A stretch of DNA of 32,655 nucleotides. Origin: Candidatus Azambacteria bacterium. GTDB taxonomy: Bacteria; Patescibacteriota; Minisyncoccia; UBA10092. The translations under genes were made by a program, and so were the position numbers. This document shows, in pieces, positions 10,370 through 31,820 of this stretch (its first letter is position 1; every line of letters starts with the position of its first letter). The DNA lies in assembly GCA_030646675.1 (NCBI GenBank), contig JAUSKX010000027.1:1-32655 (forward strand), given 5' to 3'. The notes below the pieces were generated by a model, which saw nothing but the letters and a program-made list of their open reading frames with translations, ran no database searches and was not told the DNA's origin.

Positions 10370-10609
10370 ATGGATAAAATTGATAAGGCGTTAAATCAAT
10401 TAATATTCAAAGAAAAAGAACGGATAAGAAATGTTATTAAAGCGCTCCAATTGGGGCGTTTTAATAATCTGGATATTAAAAAATTAAAAGGATTTAGGGA
10501 TATTTTTCGAGTACGAAAAGGAGAACTTAGAATTGTTTATCAATTATTAGGCAAAAATATCATTATTCTAAAAATAGATAGAAGAAAAGAAGATACGTAT
10601 AAGTTTTAG
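10370..10609 (+). CDS. Toxin, RelE/ParE family
   Basis: LKGFRDIFRVRKGELRIVYQLLGKNIIILKIDRRKEDTYKF is RelE-like; 2-nt gap to antitoxin. Confidence 0.82.
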   Translation: MDKIDKALNQLIFKEKERIRNVIKALQLGRFNNLDIKKLKGFRDIFRVRKGELRIVYQLLGKNIIILKIDRRKEDTYKF

Positions 10610-10689: not shown

Positions 10690-10719
10690 TTGACAAATGC
10701 CATTATCTTATGGTATACT
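10690..10719 (+). promoter_or_regulatory. Sigma70-type promoter for DGR target gene
   Basis: TTGACA (10690-10695), 18-nt spacer, TATACT (10714-10719); about 100-nt leader with SD GGAGG before ATG 10830. Confidence 0.75.
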
Positions 10720-10829: not shown

Positions 10830-11387
10830 ATGAAGTACAATGAGATGACTTTTGGACAGATGGAAGCAGTAATCAACAAACTGGGCGGATACGAAGAGAC
10901 ATTGCGATTCCTGCGTGGCGAACTGGTGGTTTCAGAATCGGCTAAAAAAATCGACACAGTCAACCCCTACACTCTTACCATCAACTACACCCGCAGCATT
11001 GAAGACGGAATCAAAGCCGGAAAGTACGACTGGACAAACAGCGATATTACATCCAGCCATTTCCCGAGCAGCGAAGTCGGGACCAAGGAGGTTTCTGTAG
11101 AACTCGTCCATTTCGGAAAAGACATGACAATCGAAGAAGTTCTCTCCGAACTGGACAAGGCGGGCATGCGTCCCACCACTCTCAAAGAACTTCTCGTTCT
11201 CGGAGAAAAGTACCCCGACCTTCAGAGGGAATTTCCAATCATTGCTCTTGCTTCTGTCTGGCAGAATCCGCGTGGCGTCCGCCGCTGCGCGTATCTCGTC
11301 AGGTTCGGCTCCCGGCGCGACCTGGACTGGCGCTGGGTTGGCCGCAGGTGGCTTGGTCTCTGCCGGTTCGCGGCTGTCCGCAAGTAG
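10830..11387 (+). CDS. DGR target (variable) protein
   Basis: 185-aa ORF whose C-terminus (ASVWQNPRGVRRCAYLVRFGSRRDLDWRWVGRRWLGLCRFAAVRK) is encoded by the VR matching the TR downstream. Confidence 0.92.
   Translation: MKYNEMTFGQMEAVINKLGGYEETLRFLRGELVVSESAKKIDTVNPYTLTINYTRSIEDGIKAGKYDWTNSDITSSHFPSSEVGTKEVSVELVHFGKDMTIEEVLSELDKAGMRPTTLKELLVLGEKYPDLQREFPIIALASVWQNPRGVRRCAYLVRFGSRRDLDWRWVGRRWLGLCRFAAVRK
11252..11383 (+). repeat. DGR variable repeat (VR)
   Basis: 132 bp colinear with TR 11719-11850; 26 differences, 25 at TR adenines (hand count). Confidence 0.96.
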
Positions 11388-11394
11388 GGAACTT

Positions 11395-11433
11395 GGAATC
11401 TTGAATCCTCGGCTCTTTTGGATTCTTGATTCC
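11395..11433 (+). promoter_or_regulatory. Hairpin just downstream of VR
   Basis: GGAATCttGAATCC-tcggctctttt-GGATTCttGATTCC, two 6-bp stems separated by a TT/TT mismatch. Confidence 0.75.
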
Positions 11434-11438
11434 TTCAA

Positions 11439-11465
11439 AAAAGGGCGGTTATTAACCGCCCTTTT
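11439..11465 (+). terminator. Rho-independent terminator of DGR target gene
   Basis: AAAAGGGCGGTT-att-AACCGCCCTTTT followed by an A/T-rich tail. Confidence 0.85.
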
Positions 11466-11718
11466 AAATTTTTTATATTTTGATAAAATATATTTAGATA
11501 GTAGATTTATAAAAGCTCGCGGTTACGGCTTCGGGCGATCGAATTCTAAAATTAATAATTCAGAGAATGGCATCGGGCACGCCTTATGCCAGAGTTGGTT
11601 ATTAATTTTTAAAAAATAAAGATACTTGGCGCGCGATATTAAGGGGAGAGATCCCGAATAAAATTCAATCCCGAGAGCATTCAAAGGATGGTGGAACAGG
11701 CGATATCGCGCGCAATGG

Positions 11719-11850
11719 TTCTGTCTGGCAGAATCCGAATGGCAACCGCAACTACGCGTATCTCAACAGGAACGGCTCCAAGCGCAACCTGAACTTGAAC
11801 TGGATTGACAACAGGTGGAATGGTAACTGCCGGTTCGCGGCTGTCCGCAA
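11719..11850 (+). repeat. DGR template repeat (TR)
   Basis: Asn-rich template ttctgtctggcagaatccgaatggcaaccgcaactacgcg...; conserved GC-rich 3' end tgccggttcgcggctgtccgcaa shared with VR. Confidence 0.96.
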
Positions 11851-11862
11851 TTTTCTTTATTT

Positions 11863-11888
11863 CCCCGTAAAATACGGGGTTTTATTTT
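11863..11888. terminator. Terminator after TR (probably bidirectional with avd)
   Basis: CCCCGTA-aaa-TACGGGG followed by TTTTATTTT; avd stop codon lies at 11882-11884. Confidence 0.8.
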
Positions 11889-12193
11889 GTCGACTGTCTC
11901 ATCCATCCCCCTAGCATTTGTCCTATTTCGCTTAAATGTTCTGAAAGAATGATGTATTTTTTGTTATCCAAAGATTTTATTTCCCAGGCGATTTGGAGAA
12001 AGAATTTAAGCAAATCAAATTTGCCGCTGGCTTTCCGCAAGTAAATGATTTTCTCCGGCTTGCTCAAATAACTTGCGATGAAAAATAACTCTACCGTATC
12101 TAAAAATAAAGAATCAATTTTTGCGCCGAGCGTATGGCGGGATTTCTTATGAAAGTGATTTCTGAATTCATCCCAAATCTTGTATACTGCCAA
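11882..12193 (-). CDS. avd: DGR accessory protein Avd-like (four-helix bundle)
   Basis: YKIWDEFRNHFHKKSRHTLGAKIDSLFLDTVELFFIASYLSKPEKIIYLRKASGKFDLLKFFLQIAWEIKSLDNKKYIILSEHLSEIGQMLGGW; Avd-like size, helical pattern and position. Start codon uncertain. Confidence 0.82.
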   Translation of the reverse strand: MAVYKIWDEFRNHFHKKSRHTLGAKIDSLFLDTVELFFIASYLSKPEKIIYLRKASGKFDLLKFFLQIAWEIKSLDNKKYIILSEHLSEIGQMLGGWMRQSTK

Positions 12194-12249
12194 AAACTTT
12201 TGGATTATAGAAATAGAACCCGTTGGGGGGGGGTAATAGAAAAATTATT

Positions 12250-13245
12250 ATGAAAATTCAATTGCGTCATAATTTTGAATCTATTATTAGTATTGATAAT
12301 TTGTTGGAAGCGTGGAAAGAATTTATAAGAGGAAAAAGAAACAAAAAGGACGTCCAAGAATTTTCATTGTGTCTGATGGATGATATTATCACGCTTCATC
12401 AAGAACTCGCCAGTGGAATATACCGTCACGGCAGTTATCAAGCGTTTAACATATCCGACCCTAAACCAAGGAATATCCATAAAGCCAGCGTGAGAGACCG
12501 GCTTTTGCACCACGCCATTTATCGTATACTTTATCCCTTTTTCGATAAGACATTTATTGCAGATTCATATTCTTGCCGAAAAAATAAAGGCACACATAAA
12601 GCGATTAACAGATTCAAATATTTTGCCGCCAGAGTTTCAAAGAATAATACAAAAACATGCTGGGTCTTAAAATGCGATATCAAGAAATTCTTTGCGAATA
12701 TCAACCATGAAGTTTTATTGAACATTTTAGAGCAGTATATATCAGACAAGGATATTTTATGGCTTTTGGATAAAGTTATTTCAAGTTTTCATTCTGTTTG
12801 TCCAGGCGTCGGCCTGCCACTAGGCAATCTAACCTCCCAGCTCTTTGTTAATATCTATATGAACGAATTTGACCAATTTGTTAAGCATAAATTAAAGATT
12901 AGATATTATATAAGATATGCCGATGATTTTGTGGTTTTGTCGGATAATAGAAAAGAGCTTGAGGATTTAGTTTTTCCAATCAGCGAATTTCTTTCTGAAA
13001 AACTTAAATTGCAACTGCATCCGAACAAGGTTTCCATCGAAACTCTGAATTCAGGAGTTGATTTTCTGGGATGGGTTAATTTTCCAGAACACAGAATATT
13101 AAGAACCGCCGCCAAAAGAAGAATGTTCAGAAGAATAGAAGAATCTCCCACGCCTGAAACATTGAATTCTTATTTGGGGTTATTGAGGCATGGAAACACA
13201 TACAGATTGCAGAAAGAACTTTATGCACGCAAAAGTTTCCTATAG
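12250..13245 (+). CDS. DGR-type reverse transcriptase
   Basis: LKCDIKKFFANINHEVL, GVGLPLGNLTSQLFVNIYMNEFD (DGR-type GNLTSQ), IRYADDFVVL (YADD), LHPNKVSIETLNSGVDFLGW. ATG at 12250 preferred over TTG at 12223. Confidence 0.93.
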   Translation: MKIQLRHNFESIISIDNLLEAWKEFIRGKRNKKDVQEFSLCLMDDIITLHQELASGIYRHGSYQAFNISDPKPRNIHKASVRDRLLHHAIYRILYPFFDKTFIADSYSCRKNKGTHKAINRFKYFAARVSKNNTKTCWVLKCDIKKFFANINHEVLLNILEQYISDKDILWLLDKVISSFHSVCPGVGLPLGNLTSQLFVNIYMNEFDQFVKHKLKIRYYIRYADDFVVLSDNRKELEDLVFPISEFLSEKLKLQLHPNKVSIETLNSGVDFLGWVNFPEHRILRTAAKRRMFRRIEESPTPETLNSYLGLLRHGNTYRLQKELYARKSFL

Positions 13246-22142: not shown

Positions 22143-22694
22143 ATGAAGAAAAGCAAAATTGGCAAGGATTTCTTAAAGTATTTGGCTTTGGGCGGTTTGG
22201 TAACCGTAGCCATGCTCTCTCCCATAAATGGACACAAAGTGGCCAAAGATCTGGTGAAGCACGTTAAATATAAGCTTAAACAGCTTAAAAATAACGCCTA
22301 TTATCTTAAAAAACGAGGCCACATCGAGTTTGTTAAAGAGAATAGCAACGAGATTGTAGTTAGAATCACGGATGGCGGTAGAAAATATCTAAAAACATTT
22401 GATATAGACAATATGGCCCTGAACAGGCCCGAGCGCTGGGACGGGAAGTGGCGGCTGGTGATTTTTGATGTGCCGGAAAAGCATAAAAATGCGCGCGAAG
22501 CGTTAAGAAGAAAACTGAAAGATCTTTGTTTTTTTCGATTACAAGACAGCGCGTGGGTAACTCCGCATCCCTGCGATGACGAGATCAGATTTTTGAGAGA
22601 AATTTTTAATATTTCTTTTAACGTTGATGTTTTTACCATAAGTGACTTGAAACATCACGAGATCAAACTGAAGAAACATTTCAATATCGCTTGA
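22143..22694 (+). CDS. PaaX-like / Cas2-like fold protein with N-terminal winged helix
   Basis: RWDGKWRLVIFDVPEKHKNAREALRRKLKDLCFFRLQDSAWVTPHPCDDEIRFL matches the PaaX central (Cas2-like) pattern. Confidence 0.78.
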   Translation: MKKSKIGKDFLKYLALGGLVTVAMLSPINGHKVAKDLVKHVKYKLKQLKNNAYYLKKRGHIEFVKENSNEIVVRITDGGRKYLKTFDIDNMALNRPERWDGKWRLVIFDVPEKHKNAREALRRKLKDLCFFRLQDSAWVTPHPCDDEIRFLREIFNISFNVDVFTISDLKHHEIKLKKHFNIA

Positions 22695-23481: not shown

Positions 23482-23534
23482 TATAATTTAACCAATGCTC
23501 TGATATCCAATCAACATTGATTGGATATCAGAGC
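23482..23534 (+). promoter_or_regulatory. TATAAT -10 box and 5'-terminal hairpin of the giant gene
   Basis: TATAAT 23482-23487; GCTCTGATATCCAATCA-acat-TGATTGGATATCAGAGC (23497-23534), 17-bp perfect stem. Confidence 0.75.
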
Positions 23535-26500
23535 AAGAACAAATTTGTGCTTAATTTACCCGAAGAAATAAAAAATACCAAACAGAATTCGCGATATATT
23601 CCGCTAGCCGAAGCCGGGGAAATTTTGGGCACTTCGCGCGACTATCTGAACGTGCTTGTCAGGCGCGGAAAACTCCGCGCCGTAAAACTCGGCCGAAACT
23701 GGTTCACAACGGACGAATGGATTTCGGAATATAAAGCGCCCGCGGGCAAATTGGAACAAGAAGAAAAAGCCGAGCTGGCATCTTTGCGCGACGCTTCGCT
23801 GGCTGAAAGATTGGAGCGCGTGGAATCCCGATTCGAAAATATTTCAACTTTTAGAGATAAAGAAATATCTAAAAAAATTTATTCCGTTGTTTCTTCCCAA
23901 GAAATTAAACTGCCATCCAGAAAATTAGAACCGGAAGAGAAAACAAAGATTCTGGAATCGGTAAAAGAAAGAATCCAAACAATCGATTCCAATAATTTCC
24001 ACAATGTCTCCAAGAAATTGGGAATCAGGAAATCTCTAGAGAGCTGGTCGGCGAAGAAACTCTCCATCGCTTCAGCGCTGGCAGGCCTTGTTTTAATTGT
24101 ATCTCTCGGAATGGCGGCGGGTGTTTTCAATTTTTCCCCCTTCGGGGGATCCCCCGTAGGGGGACAATTTTCCCGCATAGCGGGACAAGCTAACATCTTC
24201 AGCAACTTCCCCAATGACGTTTCTCAATTTACGAACTGGCTGGCAAATGGAATCAACAAATCCATTTCTATTTTCAATCCATCCCAAACGGATTTAACAA
24301 TCGAAGAACTGGAATCGGGAAAATCCAAAATTGCGGTTCAGGAAGAAACTTTAAATTCAATCAATTCTCTTGCTCAAGCCGAGGCGTTGGATAGCCAAGC
24401 GATTGAGGAATATCAAAATATCGCTTCGGGCGAAACCGGAACAGGCGGTCAGACCGTATCAATCTCTGGCAGTAACTTTTCTCTTTTAGAGAATCGCCTG
24501 TCTCTAATCGAAACAAATCTGCGAGACCAGTCGGAACTTTTCAATTCCGAGTTGTCCGTTCAGAAAAAAACAATTCTGGGCACTCTCGGGGCTTTATTCG
24601 GCATTGCCAAAATGGTTCCCGAACATCCCGGTTCCACCATTGTCGTTCAAGGCCAGCCGGCTACTCTAACCACATACTCCGTCTCTCCCCAGGTCCAATC
24701 GGGATTTGACCGCCTTTCCGCCACCTATCTCTCTGTAGCCAATGACGCCACTATCAATGGTTCTCTGACGGTTAAGTCGGGAGGAAACTTCAATTCTCTT
24801 GGAGTTTCAGGAAACACATCCCTAAATACACTTTCAGTTTCCGGTCTTTCTTCCTTAACCACTCTTAATATTTCCGGCGATTCCACTTTGAATAATCTCA
24901 CGTTATCCGGAACTTTAGACGCCAGCGCCAGCAGTGTTATTTTCGCCAACGCCTCAACCACCAATCTGACGGTTTCGGGTAACACTTGGATTACCAACGG
25001 AACAATAACAAATGGAACCATCACCAACGGAACGATTACCAACGCCTCAACAACATATGCCACTTTGCCGACATTTTGGGGGACGAATGGAACAATAACA
25101 AACGCTTCAACAACATACGCCACTCTTCCAAACTTCTGGTCCACTAACGGAACCATCACTAACGCTTCAACCACCTATCTGACGGTCGGCAGTAACTTTT
25201 GGGGAGATGCCGGCTTAGTTTCTACCGCCATCCAGACTCCGCTAATTTGGAACAACGGAACTCTAACCGCTTCCACCACCGGCGCCAACCCGATTATTTT
25301 CGCGACTAATTCTTTGGAAAGAATGAGAATTGACGCCAACGGCTACGTTGCTATTGCGACCACAACAATGCCAGTTGGCTTCGGATTTAATATCGCCACT
25401 TCCACTTTCACTTATGGCAACCAATTTATTTCCGGCGGTCTCGGCGTTGGCATTGCCACAACAACCAACGGCGTTCTTCAAACTTCGGGAGATGCTTCAA
25501 TTGGCGGCAATCTTTATGTTTCCGGAAATTCTACGATCGCCAGCAATTTAACCGTTATCGGCGCTTCTTCCGCCAACACCTTAACTATCAATTCTTCCAT
25601 CAATTCTAATTTGGTTCCCGACCAGAACGCGGCGAGAGACCTCGGTTCAACTTCAATGTATTGGAAAAACGCGTATATCAGCACTCTTACCGTAAACAGC
25701 ATTTCCGCCGCTTCAACCACTATCGGCGGCACCCAGTCGGACACTTTTACCATAAATTCAGACAATGCCACTGCCGACAACGAAACCGAAACTTTAATCT
25801 TTTTCCGCGGCCAAATTCAGCCCAATGCTTTATTAACCTGGAACTCCGCCACCTCTTCCAAGAGATTTGAATTTAACCAATCGCTGTATATTAACAACGG
25901 TTCGGCTTCCACCACCAATCCGACTTTTACGATTCAAAGCATCGCCAACCAAACCGCCAACGCTTTGCAAATAATTGATAATAATTCCAGCGCGTATTTC
26001 ACGGTTAACCCGACGGGAAGTAAAACCACGATGGTCAACGCTTCAACTACCTATGCCACTCTGACAAATTTCTGGGGAACGACGGGGAATGTCGCTAATC
26101 TGACTGTTACCAATGCTTCCACCACCAACCTTTCCATCTCCGGCAATCTCTGGGGAGCCGGCAGCATACTTTTGTCCGACGGCTTACTGGGTTCTCCCTC
26201 CCTTTCTTTTACCAACGACACCGACTCCGGCCTTTATCGGGTTAGTGATAACAAAATGAGTTTTGTCACTGGCTCCGCCGTCGCTTTAACCATCGATTCT
26301 CAGCAATACGTCGGCATTGGAGCCGTTACCAGCCCTCAAGCAACGATTGATATCGGCACCAACGATATCTACAACAACACGATTGTTGACACTGCCATCA
26401 TCAGGCACAACACCACGGGAACCGCCGCCAATGGATTGGGAACAGCCCTTTCTTTCTGGGGTGAGGCGGTTGAAGGAACCAGCCAACAGCTGGCCAGAAT

Positions 26501-29387
26501 CGCCGGAGTGGTTGAACAGGCCACCACTACCTCGGCGACATTCGGTTCCTATCTTTCGTTCTGGACGACAGGTTCAGGAGGCATACAGGAAAAAATGCGC
26601 CTCACCTCAACCGGCGGCTTGGCTTTGGCAACCACCACAATGCCGTCAGGTTACGGATTTAATGTCGCCACATCTACAAATATCTACGGCAATCTTACCG
26701 TCTCCGGCAACGGAACCATAACCAATGCTTCTTCTACTTACTCAACAGTTTCCGATACTGCTTGGATTAACAATTTGGTCGCCACCAACGCCACTACCAC
26801 GACATTCAGAGCTTCAGGTCTGGCAACATTCGGAGGAAATGTGGGGATTGGGACGACAAGTCCGGGGGCACCGTTAGTGGTGGCAAATACCAGTCAAGCA
26901 TCACAGGCGTGGATAGTAAATAGTACTAACGGGAGGGGCATGTCGTTGAATGGCGACTATCCAGGGTTTGGTGTTAATTCCTATTATGATGGGGGTGCTG
27001 CCTGGAAAGCATTTAATAGTGAATACACCGGCATCTTTCAATTCAATCCGCTTAATGGGAACTGGCAATTCTTTACTGGCAATAATCCAGGTGCTAATCA
27101 AAACATGACGATAACTTTGCCAGTTGTCATCCAACAGGGTGGAAGTGTCGGCATCGGTGGAAACATAAACAACGATGGCACTTTAACAGGGGCAAAGTTA
27201 GTGGTTCAAAGTACCGGCAACGTCGGCATCGGGACGACGAGTCCGAATAATCTTCTGACTATTTCAGGGGCAACCACGCCCTCTCTTGGTTTTACAGTTG
27301 CTAATGGTCTTGGTTGGACAATGGGAATTGATACCGCGGATTCAAACAAGTTTAAAATTGCTTCTTCCACCGCTGTCGGAACAAACACAAGGTTGACAAT
27401 AGATAATTCGGGCAACGTCGGCATCGGGACGACGAATCCGGCAGGTCTTTTAACTCTTCGTACGGCAACAGCACAATCATTGGCTAACTCATTTTCAAGT
27501 TTGCGACTTGAATTACAGACAGCCAGCACTTCCCCTGGCGGCACGGGGCCACAATTAACTTTTGCGCAAAGTTATCATTCAGGTGCTCCAGCTGAAATGG
27601 CAGTAACGGGTGCAATTCGCGGATATAAAACCGGAAATGATTTGGGCTATGGTGGTGGGCTTCAATTGCTTTATCAACCTGATAATGTGGGCTTTGGGAT
27701 GCTTCCCGCCGTCACTTTAACAGGCGGAGGCAACGTTATTGTTAATGGTACTAGCGATACCACATCAAAGTTTTCAGTTTTCGGTGGTGCTAATGTACAT
27801 GCTGGACGCTTCTACGGAAATTCCACTGCAAGTCAAAGTTTGGGCATAAATATTGATGCGGGTACTAATTCAGCAGATTATGCGTTGTATATTAGAAATC
27901 AAGCGGCGTCAGCTGATTATTTGTATGTTAGAGGCGACGGCAACGTCGGCATCGGGACGACGACGCCAAAAGCCCCTTTGCAAATAGGTGGACAGTTATC
28001 CTTTCCGACAGATGGAACCGATGCCGTAATAGCAGATAACCTTTATTACTCTTCCGGGTGGAAGCATATAGCCAATTCTCTTGGTTCAATGGTTTATCAA
28101 CAGGACGGCAGTATTACTCTGTACACGTCAGCAACGGGAGCGGCTGATTCTGCCGCAACATTGGTGTCTGTTATGAGTACGACTGCGGCAGGAAACGTCG
28201 GCATCGGGACGACGGCGCCGGACGGGAAATTACACGTTTTTTCAGGATCAGCAGGGACAGTAACTGCTGATGCTAACGCTGATGACCTTACTGTGGAAAA
28301 TTCCGGTGCGGGCGGAATATCTATTCTGACTCCAGGTGCTTCAGATGGTAATTTATTTTTTGGCAATGAAAGCGAAAATGCCACAGCGCGTATCACTAGA
28401 GAAGCCACTACCGGCGATTTAAAGTTTAGTTTTCAGTCGGGGGTTGGAATATTTAGGTTCCAACAAGACGGCAAGCTCGGCATCGGGACGACGGCTCCTA
28501 CAGCAGGAATAGAACTTGACGTAGAAGGACAAGCAGAATGCGATGGAGCAGGATGTTGGACGGTTGAATCAGACATGGCGTATAAAAAAGACATAATAGA
28601 TTTGAATTATGGTTTAAGCGAGGTTCTACAAATGACCCCAAGAAGATACACCCTTAGAGAAACTAATGAAAATAGTTTTGGATTAATCGCGCAAGAACTT
28701 GAAACAATAATCCCTGAATTAGTTAGAGGAGAAGAGGGTCATAAAAACATAGGATATGACGGACTTGCTCCGATTTTGGTTAATGCGATGAAGGAGTTGG
28801 CATCAACCACAGTATCTTTGCAGAATCAAATTAACGCGTTAGTCGCATCATCAACTTTAACCGCGGCTAATGGAACATTCGCTCTTTCCACTATGAACTC
28901 CGACCTGAACCTCAACGGCTTTGCGATTTTGAATGTTAAGAGCATCACCGGATTTAATAATCTTTGGTCCATAGATTCCGAGGGCAATATTATCGCTAAA
29001 AGCGTTCAAACCCAGGCGTTGACCGTCGGCGGCGGCGCTGCCTCCGGCATCACGGTTTATGACCGCCAAACTTCGGCTCCAAAATGTATATATATAGAAG
29101 GAGGGGCGATTATGGCTTCGGATGGCGCCTGTGGCAGCACAATTAACGCCGGAGTTATCGCGCCGATTTCCCAAACCATCCCGGTTGCTACCTCCTCGGT
29201 TTCGGAAATCAATACGGCGACCTCAACTCCAGAGATAATAATTCCGCCGGCAGAGACGGCGACAAGTACGCCGGAAATACTGCCGACCGAAACGGCAACC
29301 TCAACCGAGCCGATTATTATTGACACGGCAACCACTACACCGGACATAATAATTCCACCGGTGGAAACGGCGACAACAACGCCATGA
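23517..29387 (+). CDS. Giant surface fibre protein: N-terminal HTH (excisionase-like), TM, coiled/beta repeats, S74 intramolecular chaperone, T/P-rich tail
   Basis: IPLAEAGEILGTSRDYLNVLVRRGKLRAVKLGRNWFTTDEWISEY (HTH); LSIASALAGLVLIVSLGMAAGVF (TM); repeated GNVGIGTT(S/T)P; SDMAYKKDIIDLNYGLSEVLQMTPRRYTLRETNENSFGLIAQELETIIPELV (S74). Start codon uncertain (TTG 23517 or GTG 23547). Confidence 0.85.
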   Translation: MIGYQSKNKFVLNLPEEIKNTKQNSRYIPLAEAGEILGTSRDYLNVLVRRGKLRAVKLGRNWFTTDEWISEYKAPAGKLEQEEKAELASLRDASLAERLERVESRFENISTFRDKEISKKIYSVVSSQEIKLPSRKLEPEEKTKILESVKERIQTIDSNNFHNVSKKLGIRKSLESWSAKKLSIASALAGLVLIVSLGMAAGVFNFSPFGGSPVGGQFSRIAGQANIFSNFPNDVSQFTNWLANGINKSISIFNPSQTDLTIEELESGKSKIAVQEETLNSINSLAQAEALDSQAIEEYQNIASGETGTGGQTVSISGSNFSLLENRLSLIETNLRDQSELFNSELSVQKKTILGTLGALFGIAKMVPEHPGSTIVVQGQPATLTTYSVSPQVQSGFDRLSATYLSVANDATINGSLTVKSGGNFNSLGVSGNTSLNTLSVSGLSSLTTLNISGDSTLNNLTLSGTLDASASSVIFANASTTNLTVSGNTWITNGTITNGTITNGTITNASTTYATLPTFWGTNGTITNASTTYATLPNFWSTNGTITNASTTYLTVGSNFWGDAGLVSTAIQTPLIWNNGTLTASTTGANPIIFATNSLERMRIDANGYVAIATTTMPVGFGFNIATSTFTYGNQFISGGLGVGIATTTNGVLQTSGDASIGGNLYVSGNSTIASNLTVIGASSANTLTINSSINSNLVPDQNAARDLGSTSMYWKNAYISTLTVNSISAASTTIGGTQSDTFTINSDNATADNETETLIFFRGQIQPNALLTWNSATSSKRFEFNQSLYINNGSASTTNPTFTIQSIANQTANALQIIDNNSSAYFTVNPTGSKTTMVNASTTYATLTNFWGTTGNVANLTVTNASTTNLSISGNLWGAGSILLSDGLLGSPSLSFTNDTDSGLYRVSDNKMSFVTGSAVALTIDSQQYVGIGAVTSPQATIDIGTNDIYNNTIVDTAIIRHNTTGTAANGLGTALSFWGEAVEGTSQQLARIAGVVEQATTTSATFGSYLSFWTTGSGGIQEKMRLTSTGGLALATTTMPSGYGFNVATSTNIYGNLTVSGNGTITNASSTYSTVSDTAWINNLVATNATTTTFRASGLATFGGNVGIGTTSPGAPLVVANTSQASQAWIVNSTNGRGMSLNGDYPGFGVNSYYDGGAAWKAFNSEYTGIFQFNPLNGNWQFFTGNNPGANQNMTITLPVVIQQGGSVGIGGNINNDGTLTGAKLVVQSTGNVGIGTTSPNNLLTISGATTPSLGFTVANGLGWTMGIDTADSNKFKIASSTAVGTNTRLTIDNSGNVGIGTTNPAGLLTLRTATAQSLANSFSSLRLELQTASTSPGGTGPQLTFAQSYHSGAPAEMAVTGAIRGYKTGNDLGYGGGLQLLYQPDNVGFGMLPAVTLTGGGNVIVNGTSDTTSKFSVFGGANVHAGRFYGNSTASQSLGINIDAGTNSADYALYIRNQAASADYLYVRGDGNVGIGTTTPKAPLQIGGQLSFPTDGTDAVIADNLYYSSGWKHIANSLGSMVYQQDGSITLYTSATGAADSAATLVSVMSTTAAGNVGIGTTAPDGKLHVFSGSAGTVTADANADDLTVENSGAGGISILTPGASDGNLFFGNESENATARITREATTGDLKFSFQSGVGIFRFQQDGKLGIGTTAPTAGIELDVEGQAECDGAGCWTVESDMAYKKDIIDLNYGLSEVLQMTPRRYTLRETNENSFGLIAQELETIIPELVRGEEGHKNIGYDGLAPILVNAMKELASTTVSLQNQINALVASSTLTAANGTFALSTMNSDLNLNGFAILNVKSITGFNNLWSIDSEGNIIAKSVQTQALTVGGGAASGITVYDRQTSAPKCIYIEGGAIMASDGACGSTINAGVIAPISQTIPVATSSVSEINTATSTPEIIIPPAETATSTPEILPTETATSTEPIIIDTATTTPDIIIPPVETATTTP
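25026..25184 (+). repeat. 60-bp tandem repeat in the giant gene
   Basis: Units at 25026-25085, 25086-25145 and partial 25146-25184 encoding NGTITNASTTYATLP(T/N)FW(G/S)T; preceded by 15-bp subrepeats from 24996. Confidence 0.9.
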
Positions 29388-29668: not shown

Positions 29669-30991
29669 ATGTTAAATATAGAAAATTTTTTACAAAAAAT
29701 CTCCGAAAAAATCGCCCAATTTCGTATCACGCTTACCCGTGAGGTGGCCAAATTTTCCAAAACTCGTGAGATTTCAACCCCCCAAAGTGATGAGATTTCC
29801 CGTGAGGTAATGAGAAGCAAGAGCCTTAGTCCCGATCCGTCCCTTTGCCCTTACTGCAACTCCAAAGAATTTGTTAAACGTGGCTTGCGAAAAAAGAAAC
29901 TGGAAACCGTCCAGCTGTATCTTTGCGGCGCCTGCAAAAGAACCTTCACTTCGCAATTCATAAAAGGCAGGCACTTTCCAATGAACTTGGTTATTGAAGG
30001 CCTGAATTATTATAACTTGGGGTTCGGGCTGGAGGAGACCTGTAATTTACTTAATCAAAAGTTCGGGGTCAGGCCGGAAGCATCGACACTTTCAAATTGG
30101 ACATCTCAATATTCGGAATTATGCAGATATTCGCGCCTGCGGCCTTTTGCGGTAAAAATGTTCAAGCCGGAAGACACGGTGGAGACCACAAGCATGGCTC
30201 ATCGCCAAATCTACCGTTTTCGCTACCATCGCGCCAAAATGAAAATTCTTTTGGAGGACTACAAGCACCGCAACTTCGGCCCGCTCAAGGAATATCTGGA
30301 AGCCGTGTCGAGCGAAACCCCGCACCAGTATTTCCAGGACGGCCTGCGTATTTCGGAAATAAAAACCAAGTTCGACAAGGCGCAGATGATTATAAGGAGC
30401 AAAACGAATTACGCCAACGCGCTGGCAAAGTTTGTTTTGCAGTCGGTGAAGGAAAACAAATTCCGGCATGAGGCGCTTCAGAGGTTTTTTATCGCCAACG
30501 ACTCGGTAACCGTGGCCTCCGAAGTTCCGGTGTATATAAAGAAGGAAGATATCGAGCATATGGAAAATACTCTTGGTTTTAAGATTTTGGATGAAGAAAT
30601 TCGGGTAAAGGGACAAAAGGAAAATGGGGAAAAGGGACGAGTGCCAAAGGCAACTTCAAATTCGGCACTGGACGGCCTGCCCCGTCTGCTGACGGGGCAT
30701 ATCGACCTGGTTCAAGTTCGCAACGGAATGATTCACATTCTGGATTACAAGCCGAACGCGGCCAAGGAAAAACCGATTGAACAGCTGACTTGGTACGCTC
30801 TCGCCCTGTCGCGGCTCACCGGCTTGCGGCTGTACGAGTTCAAGTGCGGGTGGTTCGATGACAAGGATTATTTTGAATTTTATCCGCTTCACGTGGTTTA
30901 TAAAATGAAAGACAGAAAAAAGAAAAAAGTGAGGTTCAAGAGCGGAGATTCAGTTGAAATCCCGGAAAATAATGAAATAAAAGTTGTATGA
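29669..30991 (+). CDS. Zinc-ribbon/HTH (transposase-like) + PD-(D/E)XK nuclease-like protein
   Basis: CPYCNSKEFVKRGLRKKKLETVQLYLCGACKRTFT zinc ribbon, helical transposase-like segment, C-terminal GHIDLVQVRNGMIHILDYKPNA (D...DxK). Confidence 0.7.
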   Translation: MLNIENFLQKISEKIAQFRITLTREVAKFSKTREISTPQSDEISREVMRSKSLSPDPSLCPYCNSKEFVKRGLRKKKLETVQLYLCGACKRTFTSQFIKGRHFPMNLVIEGLNYYNLGFGLEETCNLLNQKFGVRPEASTLSNWTSQYSELCRYSRLRPFAVKMFKPEDTVETTSMAHRQIYRFRYHRAKMKILLEDYKHRNFGPLKEYLEAVSSETPHQYFQDGLRISEIKTKFDKAQMIIRSKTNYANALAKFVLQSVKENKFRHEALQRFFIANDSVTVASEVPVYIKKEDIEHMENTLGFKILDEEIRVKGQKENGEKGRVPKATSNSALDGLPRLLTGHIDLVQVRNGMIHILDYKPNAAKEKPIEQLTWYALALSRLTGLRLYEFKCGWFDDKDYFEFYPLHVVYKMKDRKKKKVRFKSGDSVEIPENNEIKVV

Positions 30992-31401
30992 CATACAAAT
31001 TTTCGGTGAAAAAACCTGTCCATAGCTTTAGGGATTTAGAAGTTTACCAGAAAACAATGGAGGCGTCGGTTATCGTTGTCAAAAACCTGAAAGCGAAATT
31101 AACCCAGTTGAGATACCCGTTTGTGGAAGGAATGACGCAGTGCTCAATGTCTGTCCCTCTATATATAGGAGAGGCGCACTCCATCAGGTTTGGAGACCAT
31201 CCGCGGGGGATTCTTCTTTTGGAAAATGCCATGGCCGGCTGCAACAAGATGATTATTTATCTGGAGCAGGCGCGGGGGATTTACGGCAGTAAATTGGATT
31301 TCGATTTGATTGACGACTTAATCAAGAAATACGCCGAAACCCGGACAAAAATTTTCCGCCTGGAAAAAGCGTGGCAGAAATTCACTCCTCCGCAGCAATG
31401 A
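30988..31401 (+). CDS. Four-helix-bundle protein (S23/IVP-like)
   Basis: SFRDLEVYQKTMEASVIVVKNL...; ATGA overlap with the upstream gene. Confidence 0.65.
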   Translation: MTYKFSVKKPVHSFRDLEVYQKTMEASVIVVKNLKAKLTQLRYPFVEGMTQCSMSVPLYIGEAHSIRFGDHPRGILLLENAMAGCNKMIIYLEQARGIYGSKLDFDLIDDLIKKYAETRTKIFRLEKAWQKFTPPQQ

Positions 31402-31442: not shown

Positions 31443-31820
31443 ATGATTGAATTTTCAAATAAATATAATTTAGAAGAAAGAACATCCAAATTTGGGGAAA
31501 ATATTATTGATTTTTGCAGGAAAATAACGCAGGATGTTGTTACAAGGCCAATTACTAGCCAATTGATTCGTTCCGCAACTAGCATAGGTGCCAATTATAT
31601 GGAAGCCAATGGTGCTAGTTCAAAGAAAGATTTTAGAAATAAAATTTATATATGCAAGAAGGAGTCAAGGGAAACGAAGTACTGGCTTCAAATGATTGCT
31701 AAAGCAGATTCAGAAGCAAAAGAAAAGGCAAGAATTTTGTGGAAAGAAGCTCACGAATTAACACTTATATTTTCAAAAATTTTATTGACCATAGAGAAGA
31801 AGGGAAATTTTAAAAGCTAA
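31443..31820 (+). CDS. Four-helix-bundle protein (S23/IVP-like)
   Basis: LEERTSKFGENIIDFCRKITQDVVTRPITSQLIRSATSIGANYMEANGASSKKDFRNKIYICKKESRETKYWLQMI, typical of the family. Confidence 0.85.
   Translation: MIEFSNKYNLEERTSKFGENIIDFCRKITQDVVTRPITSQLIRSATSIGANYMEANGASSKKDFRNKIYICKKESRETKYWLQMIAKADSEAKEKARILWKEAHELTLIFSKILLTIEKKGNFKS

Follow-up and report, generated by a model that had tools for sequence, protein, structure and literature searches.

A Patescibacterial diversity-generating retroelement with a predicted folded template RNA of its own and a putatively phase-variable avd gene

How bacteria decide when to use diversity-generating retroelements (DGRs), the makers of huge protein diversity, is an open question, and it is raised by a locus of Candidatus Azambacteria bacterium that lies in a 32,655-nucleotide stretch of DNA (assembly GCA_030646675.1, contig JAUSKX010000027.1, positions 1 to 32,655; hereafter the window). 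A first-pass annotation of the window had described there an active-looking DGR with a template repeat (TR) and a variable repeat (VR). Using assembled sequences and a comparison set of about 160 relatives, in which loci are represented by one genome per species, we find that the locus is a genuine DGR, probably of the kind restricted to Patescibacteria. We further consider it probable that this DGR is complete, with its TR in a separate folded RNA and its avd gene gated by a phase-variable repeat. The comparison establishes the repeat, the mixture of reading frames and the coding constraint on the body of avd; switching itself is a prediction from them. The components of the locus are:

10830-11387, plus strand: target (variable protein) gene, 185 aa, from the open reading frame (ORF) and an AlphaFold2 (AF2) model
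11252-11383, plus strand: VR, from the TR/VR alignment
11719-11850, plus strand: TR, from the alignment; in 71 loci the homology begins, by the median, 2 nt past helix P1 and stops 3 nt short of helix strand P0' (both set out below)
11882-12270, minus strand: avd, with its body at 11882-12224 and its leader ATG at 12270-12268, out of frame as assembled; bAvd, PF22296
12225-12233, minus strand: C9 tract (G9 on the plus strand), predicted phase-variable repeat in the 5' end of avd
12250-13245, plus strand: DGR reverse transcriptase (RT), 331 aa, with YADD and LPLGNLTSQ motifs; RVT_1 2.6e-27, PHROG 1423 8.6e-111, PDB 8ub7 6e-47

The alignment of VR with TR is gapless over 132 bp and contains 26 differences (12 A>G, 7 A>C, 6 A>T and 1 T>G), so that the earlier count of 26 differences, 25 of them at adenines, is exact. 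With a TR composition of A35 C36 G35 T26, changes affect 25 of the 35 adenines and 1 of the 97 other bases (Fisher p=7.4e-18), again the figures first given; many non-adenine differences in an exact alignment had been named as grounds for rejecting the system, and there is only one. Sixteen codons differ between TR and VR, where about 15 had been estimated, and the reported richness in asparagine codons is borne out by 12 AAY codons in the TR. The TR is intact and the target ORF stays open through the VR, both as previously stated, and the ORF ends at the 3' end of the VR. At their 3' ends TR and VR share 24 identical nucleotides, 17 of them G or C, a possible counterpart of the GC-rich initiation of mutagenic homology (IMH). 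Pooling of 77 related TR/VR pairs gave changes at 1263 of 2431 A sites and 37 of 7122 non-A sites; these pairs are the output of one scan that rewards A mismatches, and the pooled figure is no independent test. The genome that carries the locus (448 kb in 30 contigs, 92% complete) has a single RT of this type together with a single TR and a single VR, and a search of it for a second TR, or for a second VR that would mark a second target, found none.

The RT has its best match in PDB in 8ub7, a chain which we take to be the BPP-1 bRT, ahead of group II RTs at 1.6e-24, and it falls below the cut-off of the group II equivalog model. A retron identity was considered and rejected, since similarity to the retron RT model is weak and far below the cut-off (56.9 versus 235 bits) and an adenine-mutated target is present. 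The avd gene on the minus strand had gone unreported in the first-pass annotation; its product matches bAvd at 3.9e-13 (50.3 bits, cut-off 40) and a PHROG family annotated as 'Avd protein of DGR'. In almost every relative VR, TR and RT lie on one strand and avd on the opposite strand, and avd is antisense to the RT in all 188 loci in which both genes were found, the avd leader ATG (12270) and the RT ATG (12250) overlapping head to head in the window. The 80 closest loci in other genomes bear Patescibacteria-type labels wherever they are named. Roux et al. 2021 (PMC8144416) described a DGR clade restricted to Patescibacteria, with targets that lack recognisable domains; our locus resembles these DGRs in being cellular, in its Patescibacterial host, in having an RT with a TR/VR pair and in a target without a recognisable domain, and host and gene content, rather than a tree, point to membership in their DGR clade 2. 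As neither 'Avd' nor 'secondary structure' occurs in the text of that paper, the antisense avd, the repeat tract and the TR-RNA fold are undescribed there. Because an RT, an Avd, an intact TR, an open target, adenine-only changes (but for the one T>G) and a synteny kept in about 150 relatives occur together, the VR was diversified in the past. Thus the first-pass annotation stands as regards the DGR and its past diversification, but present activity is unproven, avd being out of frame (OFF) as assembled.

The OFF state results from the C9 tract, which lies between the start codon of avd and the body that begins directly after the tract: with nine cytosines the leader reads MTQLNFHNNFSITPP... 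from the ATG, out of frame with the body, and meets a stop after 21 codons. Comparison of the avd 5' ends across relatives showed that: 1) Long G/C runs are concentrated at this place, with 66 G runs of at least 8 in the avd 5' regions of 79 loci versus 5 G/C runs in the remaining 873 kb; our whole genome contains 3 distinct G/C runs of at least 8. 2) A C tract is present in 120 of 163 distinct avd 5' ends, and in 14 others its place is taken by a different repeat, namely (CT)n, (CA)n, (GA)n, (TC)n, (CAAC)n or a 7-nt unit, as in L045, where (GCCAGCC)6.6 replaces the C tract; these units of 2, 4 and 7 nt are in no case a multiple of 3. 3) The frames are mixed where a repeat is present, the counts for frames 0/1/2 being 25/52/38 with C tracts, 4/7/2 with other repeats and 18/2/0 in repeat-free loci, so that an in-frame leader ATG is found in 29 of 128 loci with a repeat versus 18 of 20 repeat-free ones (p=9e-9; the repeat-free set takes in more distant DGRs, and 14 loci of ambiguous frame were set aside). 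4) The body remains full length in 96 of the 98 OFF loci and has the same third-position bias as in loci with the ATG in frame (ON), the pairs compared being phylogenetically non-independent, and hence OFF bodies are still constrained as protein. 5) L012 (C8, OFF) and L033 (C10, ON) have nearly the same leader. A repeat with mixed frames is the signature of phase variation, and its simplest reading would be slipped-strand mispairing in avd; since the frame is mixed across relatives, the state of avd is probably reversible. MutS_I is absent from 57 of 60 genomes of the class, our own included, and this absence should raise slippage. Although avd reads OFF in the assembled genome, the VR in the window carries a record of past ON periods.

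Other explanations of the tract have to be weighed against such gating. The gene might be expressed constitutively from the in-frame TTG at 12193 or another near-cognate codon, with the C tract either left over as a neutral relic or serving as a DNA feature. In 60 of the 98 OFF loci a GTG or TTG does occur in frame, and the bAvd score is the same without the upstream residues; yet in 30 of the 98 none of the codons ATG, GTG and TTG occurs in the reading frame of avd, loci without a repeat start at an ATG that is in frame, and the rarity of G/C runs elsewhere speaks against a neutral relic. Moreover, the match to the NF033474 profile starts at position 2 if avd is read directly after the tract but only at position 19, and with a lower score, if it is read from the TTG, which makes this codon a poor start and leaves constitutive expression quite unlikely. 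Programmed slippage, whereby RNA polymerase or the ribosome shifts on the homopolymer so that every genomic frame would yield some Avd, would account for a long C tract, for the tolerance of mixed genomic frames and for a body under coding constraint. The di-, tetra- and heptanucleotide repeats found at the same place are, however, non-standard slippage sites for either machine and the genomic offsets are non-uniform, and we regard this explanation as unlikely.

It is also conceivable that the repeat acts mainly on the RT, by setting the spacing in its 5' leader or promoter, rather than on the frame of avd: the G tract is typically situated some 15-25 nt upstream of the RT ATG, and the two genes overlap as described above. 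The frame statistics concern avd, however, and the repeat units are never multiples of 3, so that an effect mainly on the RT appears very unlikely, even if both effects could coexist. A decaying DGR with a truly broken avd, or a homopolymer miscounted in assembly, would fit the few relatives with stops in the RT (e.g. L024) and the fact that homopolymer counts can be wrong; but the persistence of full-length, constrained OFF bodies, the recurrence of the tract in more than 100 separate assemblies and the intact RT, TR and target of the window make either cause very unlikely. Several points weigh against a phase-variable repeat gating avd, the reading that we nonetheless prefer. The NF033474 score of avd (68.4 bits) is under the curated cut-off of 80. 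Close pairs are few, and only a handful differ in tract length; a search of IMG/VR for near-identical pairs, as a within-species test of the tract, returned only relatives at RT identity of 63% or less. Conservation of the RT N-terminus (MKIQLRH), to which the leader peptide is antisense, could by itself preserve the leader's ATG, and the out-of-frame share of C tracts exceeds two thirds (chi-square p=0.009), unlike neutral frame drift. Finally, the dependence on Avd and the internal priming adenine invoked below are extrapolated from BPP-1 (PMC12875486).

The other part of the preferred reading concerns the template. The TR is predicted to sit in a stand-alone RNA (about 11496-11886) that has a promoter to itself, folds into seven covarying helices and ends in a terminator; the status of this RNA as a separate transcription unit is predicted from a conserved extended -10 element, covarying hairpins and the terminator. 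The predicted elements are:

11481-11489, plus strand: conserved extended -10 (TGATAAAAT) of the TR RNA, with a predicted start at about 11496
11504-11540, plus strand: hairpin HP1 (11504-11506/11538-11540 and 11515-11519/11532-11536), loop motif GRYYAMGGYUU
11568-11591, plus strand: hairpin HP2, with a loop motif similar to that of HP1
11614-11622, plus strand: 5' strand of helix P0, pairing with 11854-11862 across the TR
11624, plus strand: adenosine A11624, 2 nt past P0, candidate priming nucleotide (invariant column A25 in 71 loci; role inferred)
11629-11713, plus strand: structured element with P1 (11629-11640/11702-11713), P2 (11644-11647/11652-11655) and P3 (11668-11671/11686-11689)
11854-11862, plus strand: 3' strand of P0 (P0')
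11863-11879, plus strand: intrinsic terminator of the TR RNA, with the antisense avd stop codon just beyond

The motif TGNTANNNT occurs 100-160 nt upstream of P0, mostly at 126-137 nt, in 43 of 71 loci, against an expectation of 0.07 per 60-nt window. In the same 71 loci the five helices P0, P1, P2, P3 and the terminator stem (36 pairs) are 91.1% paired, compared with 74.7% in column-shuffled controls and 40-53% when the strands are slid; 33 of the 36 pairs show compensatory changes, and 485 compensatory cells were observed versus 141 in shuffles, the cells being mutually dependent and no shuffle equalling the observed values. Individually, P0 is 87.5% paired, with compensatory changes at 8 of its 9 pairs, and also appears in the single-sequence minimum-free-energy structure, while P1, P2 and P3 are 96.6%, 92.4% and 98.2% paired, likewise with compensatory changes; folding of the window sequence alone recovers P0, P1, P2 and the terminator. 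HP1 is 97.3% paired in 37 loci and HP2 96.4%, with compensatory changes at all pairs of the former and all six of the latter; together they reach 96.9% versus 64.9% in the control, and every pair covaries. P0 brackets the TR, in that P1 ends about 2 nt before it and the distal P0 strand starts about 3 nt after it, the TR limits having been set by TR/VR identity independently of the fold. The nearly identical loop motifs of HP1 (11515-11536) and HP2 (11570-11589) form a tandem repeat that might bind Avd or the RT.

A covariance model of the 5' element (R1) scores 106 bits in the window and finds one site in our genome. Within the class, searches with this model recovered the 108-nt element in 93 of 293 genomes, and at the level of the phylum in 69 of 389. 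Among 37 loci located through the RNA model, a TR/VR pair begins beside the element in 35, an antisense avd is present in 36 and an RT in 33; several of the losses lie at fragment ends, and some of the loci were already known from the RT search. No Rfam family covers the element, weak matches such as RT-9 falling outside it or far under the cut-off. We found no report of a conserved TR-RNA fold in a DGR, in a literature search that lacked several key papers. Several genomes (G091, G176, G218, G287 and others) have several copies of the element each, suggesting several DGRs per very small genome, and in G167, G172 and G290 it occurs without a listed RT match, as might result from missing contigs, a divergent RT or an orphan template RNA. 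More distant DGRs (L094, L097, L098, L147, L148 and L151) have an extended form of the element that the model matches weakly (22-38 bits), and those of them that were tested are without the avd repeat.

In the BPP-1 DGR, arranged as avd-TR-Sp-brt, the TR is preceded by avd coding sequence and followed on its 3' side by a folded spacer, an internal adenine of which primes cDNA synthesis at the TR 3' junction (PMC12875486; see also PMC8867640); Avd is required there for cDNA synthesis (PMC12875486). The locus described here resembles that system in an RT homologous to the 8ub7 chain, an Avd homologue, adenine-specific changes and a VR at the 3' end of the target gene, but its folded domain precedes the TR on the 5' side, the RNA runs on for only some 35 nt past the TR before a terminator ends it, and avd is antisense. 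The template RNA thus appears re-ordered and retron-like, in that a retron msr-msd RNA likewise has a structured priming 5' part and then a template, with 5' and 3' parts paired; unlike in retrons, the RT is closest to DGR RTs, mutation affects the template adenines and a gene is rewritten with the product. By analogy, P0 would keep the 5' leader next to the TR's 3' edge, and an adenosine in this leader would prime cDNA synthesis by RT-Avd; A11624 is the best candidate, being invariant in 71 loci and lying, 2 nt beyond P0, at the spot that a primer would have to occupy. The RT would then copy the TR, misreading adenines, and stop at P1, next to the 5' edge of the TR, and the cDNA would replace the VR in the target gene. 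Replication slippage of the repeat, without MutS, would shift the frame of avd and turn hypermutation on or off. The repeat resembles the poly-G/C contingency loci of Campylobacter, Neisseria and Helicobacter, with homopolymers of 8-13 or frame-shifting repeats in the 5' coding region and mixed ON/OFF states; in our case, instead of a surface or modification gene, the repeat would gate a mutagenesis factor, and the switching of this factor is something that we infer. A literature search, which lacked several key papers, found no report of phase variation in a DGR. We think it fairly probable that hypermutation is phase-variable in this way across Patescibacteria, through avd repeats whose types are kept or re-invented in MutS-less cells, together with a retron-like, 5'-primed template RNA.

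Two further features flank the target gene:

10690-10719, plus strand: promoter-like site of the target gene, TTGACA-18-TATACT, 11/12 match
11439-11465, plus strand: hairpin and T run 3' of the target gene, a terminator and possibly also a target-site stem-loop

A C-type-lectin fold of the target protein is only suggested: the AF2 model (pLDDT 90.7) gave C-type lectins as plausible matches in a Foldseek search of PDB (probability up to 0.80, E at least 0.24), with zero matches at E<=0.001, and a PDB sequence search with the protein returned nothing significant. The hairpin, 55 nt downstream of the VR, is terminator-like and has counterparts in 39 of 76 loci; a role as a conserved cruciform was considered but is unsupported, the spacing being variable and most copies terminator-like. 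Directly upstream of the target gene lies a ParE-like toxin ORF (10370-10609), just under the Pfam cut-off. Elsewhere in the window, 22143-22694 encodes a PaaX/Cas2-like domain protein (PF20803, 2.4e-22), and 23517-29387 a repetitive protein of 1956 aa with, by eye, many NASTTNLTVSGN-like repeats and a C-terminus resembling a phage-type intramolecular chaperone (S74-like), probably a large surface fibre. The ORF at 29669-30991 has, by eye, a zinc-ribbon/transposase-like N-terminus and a PD-(D/E)XK nuclease-like C-terminus. Two adjacent four-helix-bundle ORFs (30988-31401 and 31443-31820) lie away from the DGR, the second being a clear 23S-rRNA-intervening-sequence protein (PF05635, 1.3e-16), a distant Avd-like family.

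The covariance model of the TR RNA locates TRs without recourse to the RT and defines the boundaries of the template, and the RNA itself offers a compact system for studying the priming of DGR cDNA. If avd is indeed under a slippage switch, a mutator would be controlled by a mutator, such that most cells keep a working target while a minority diversify.
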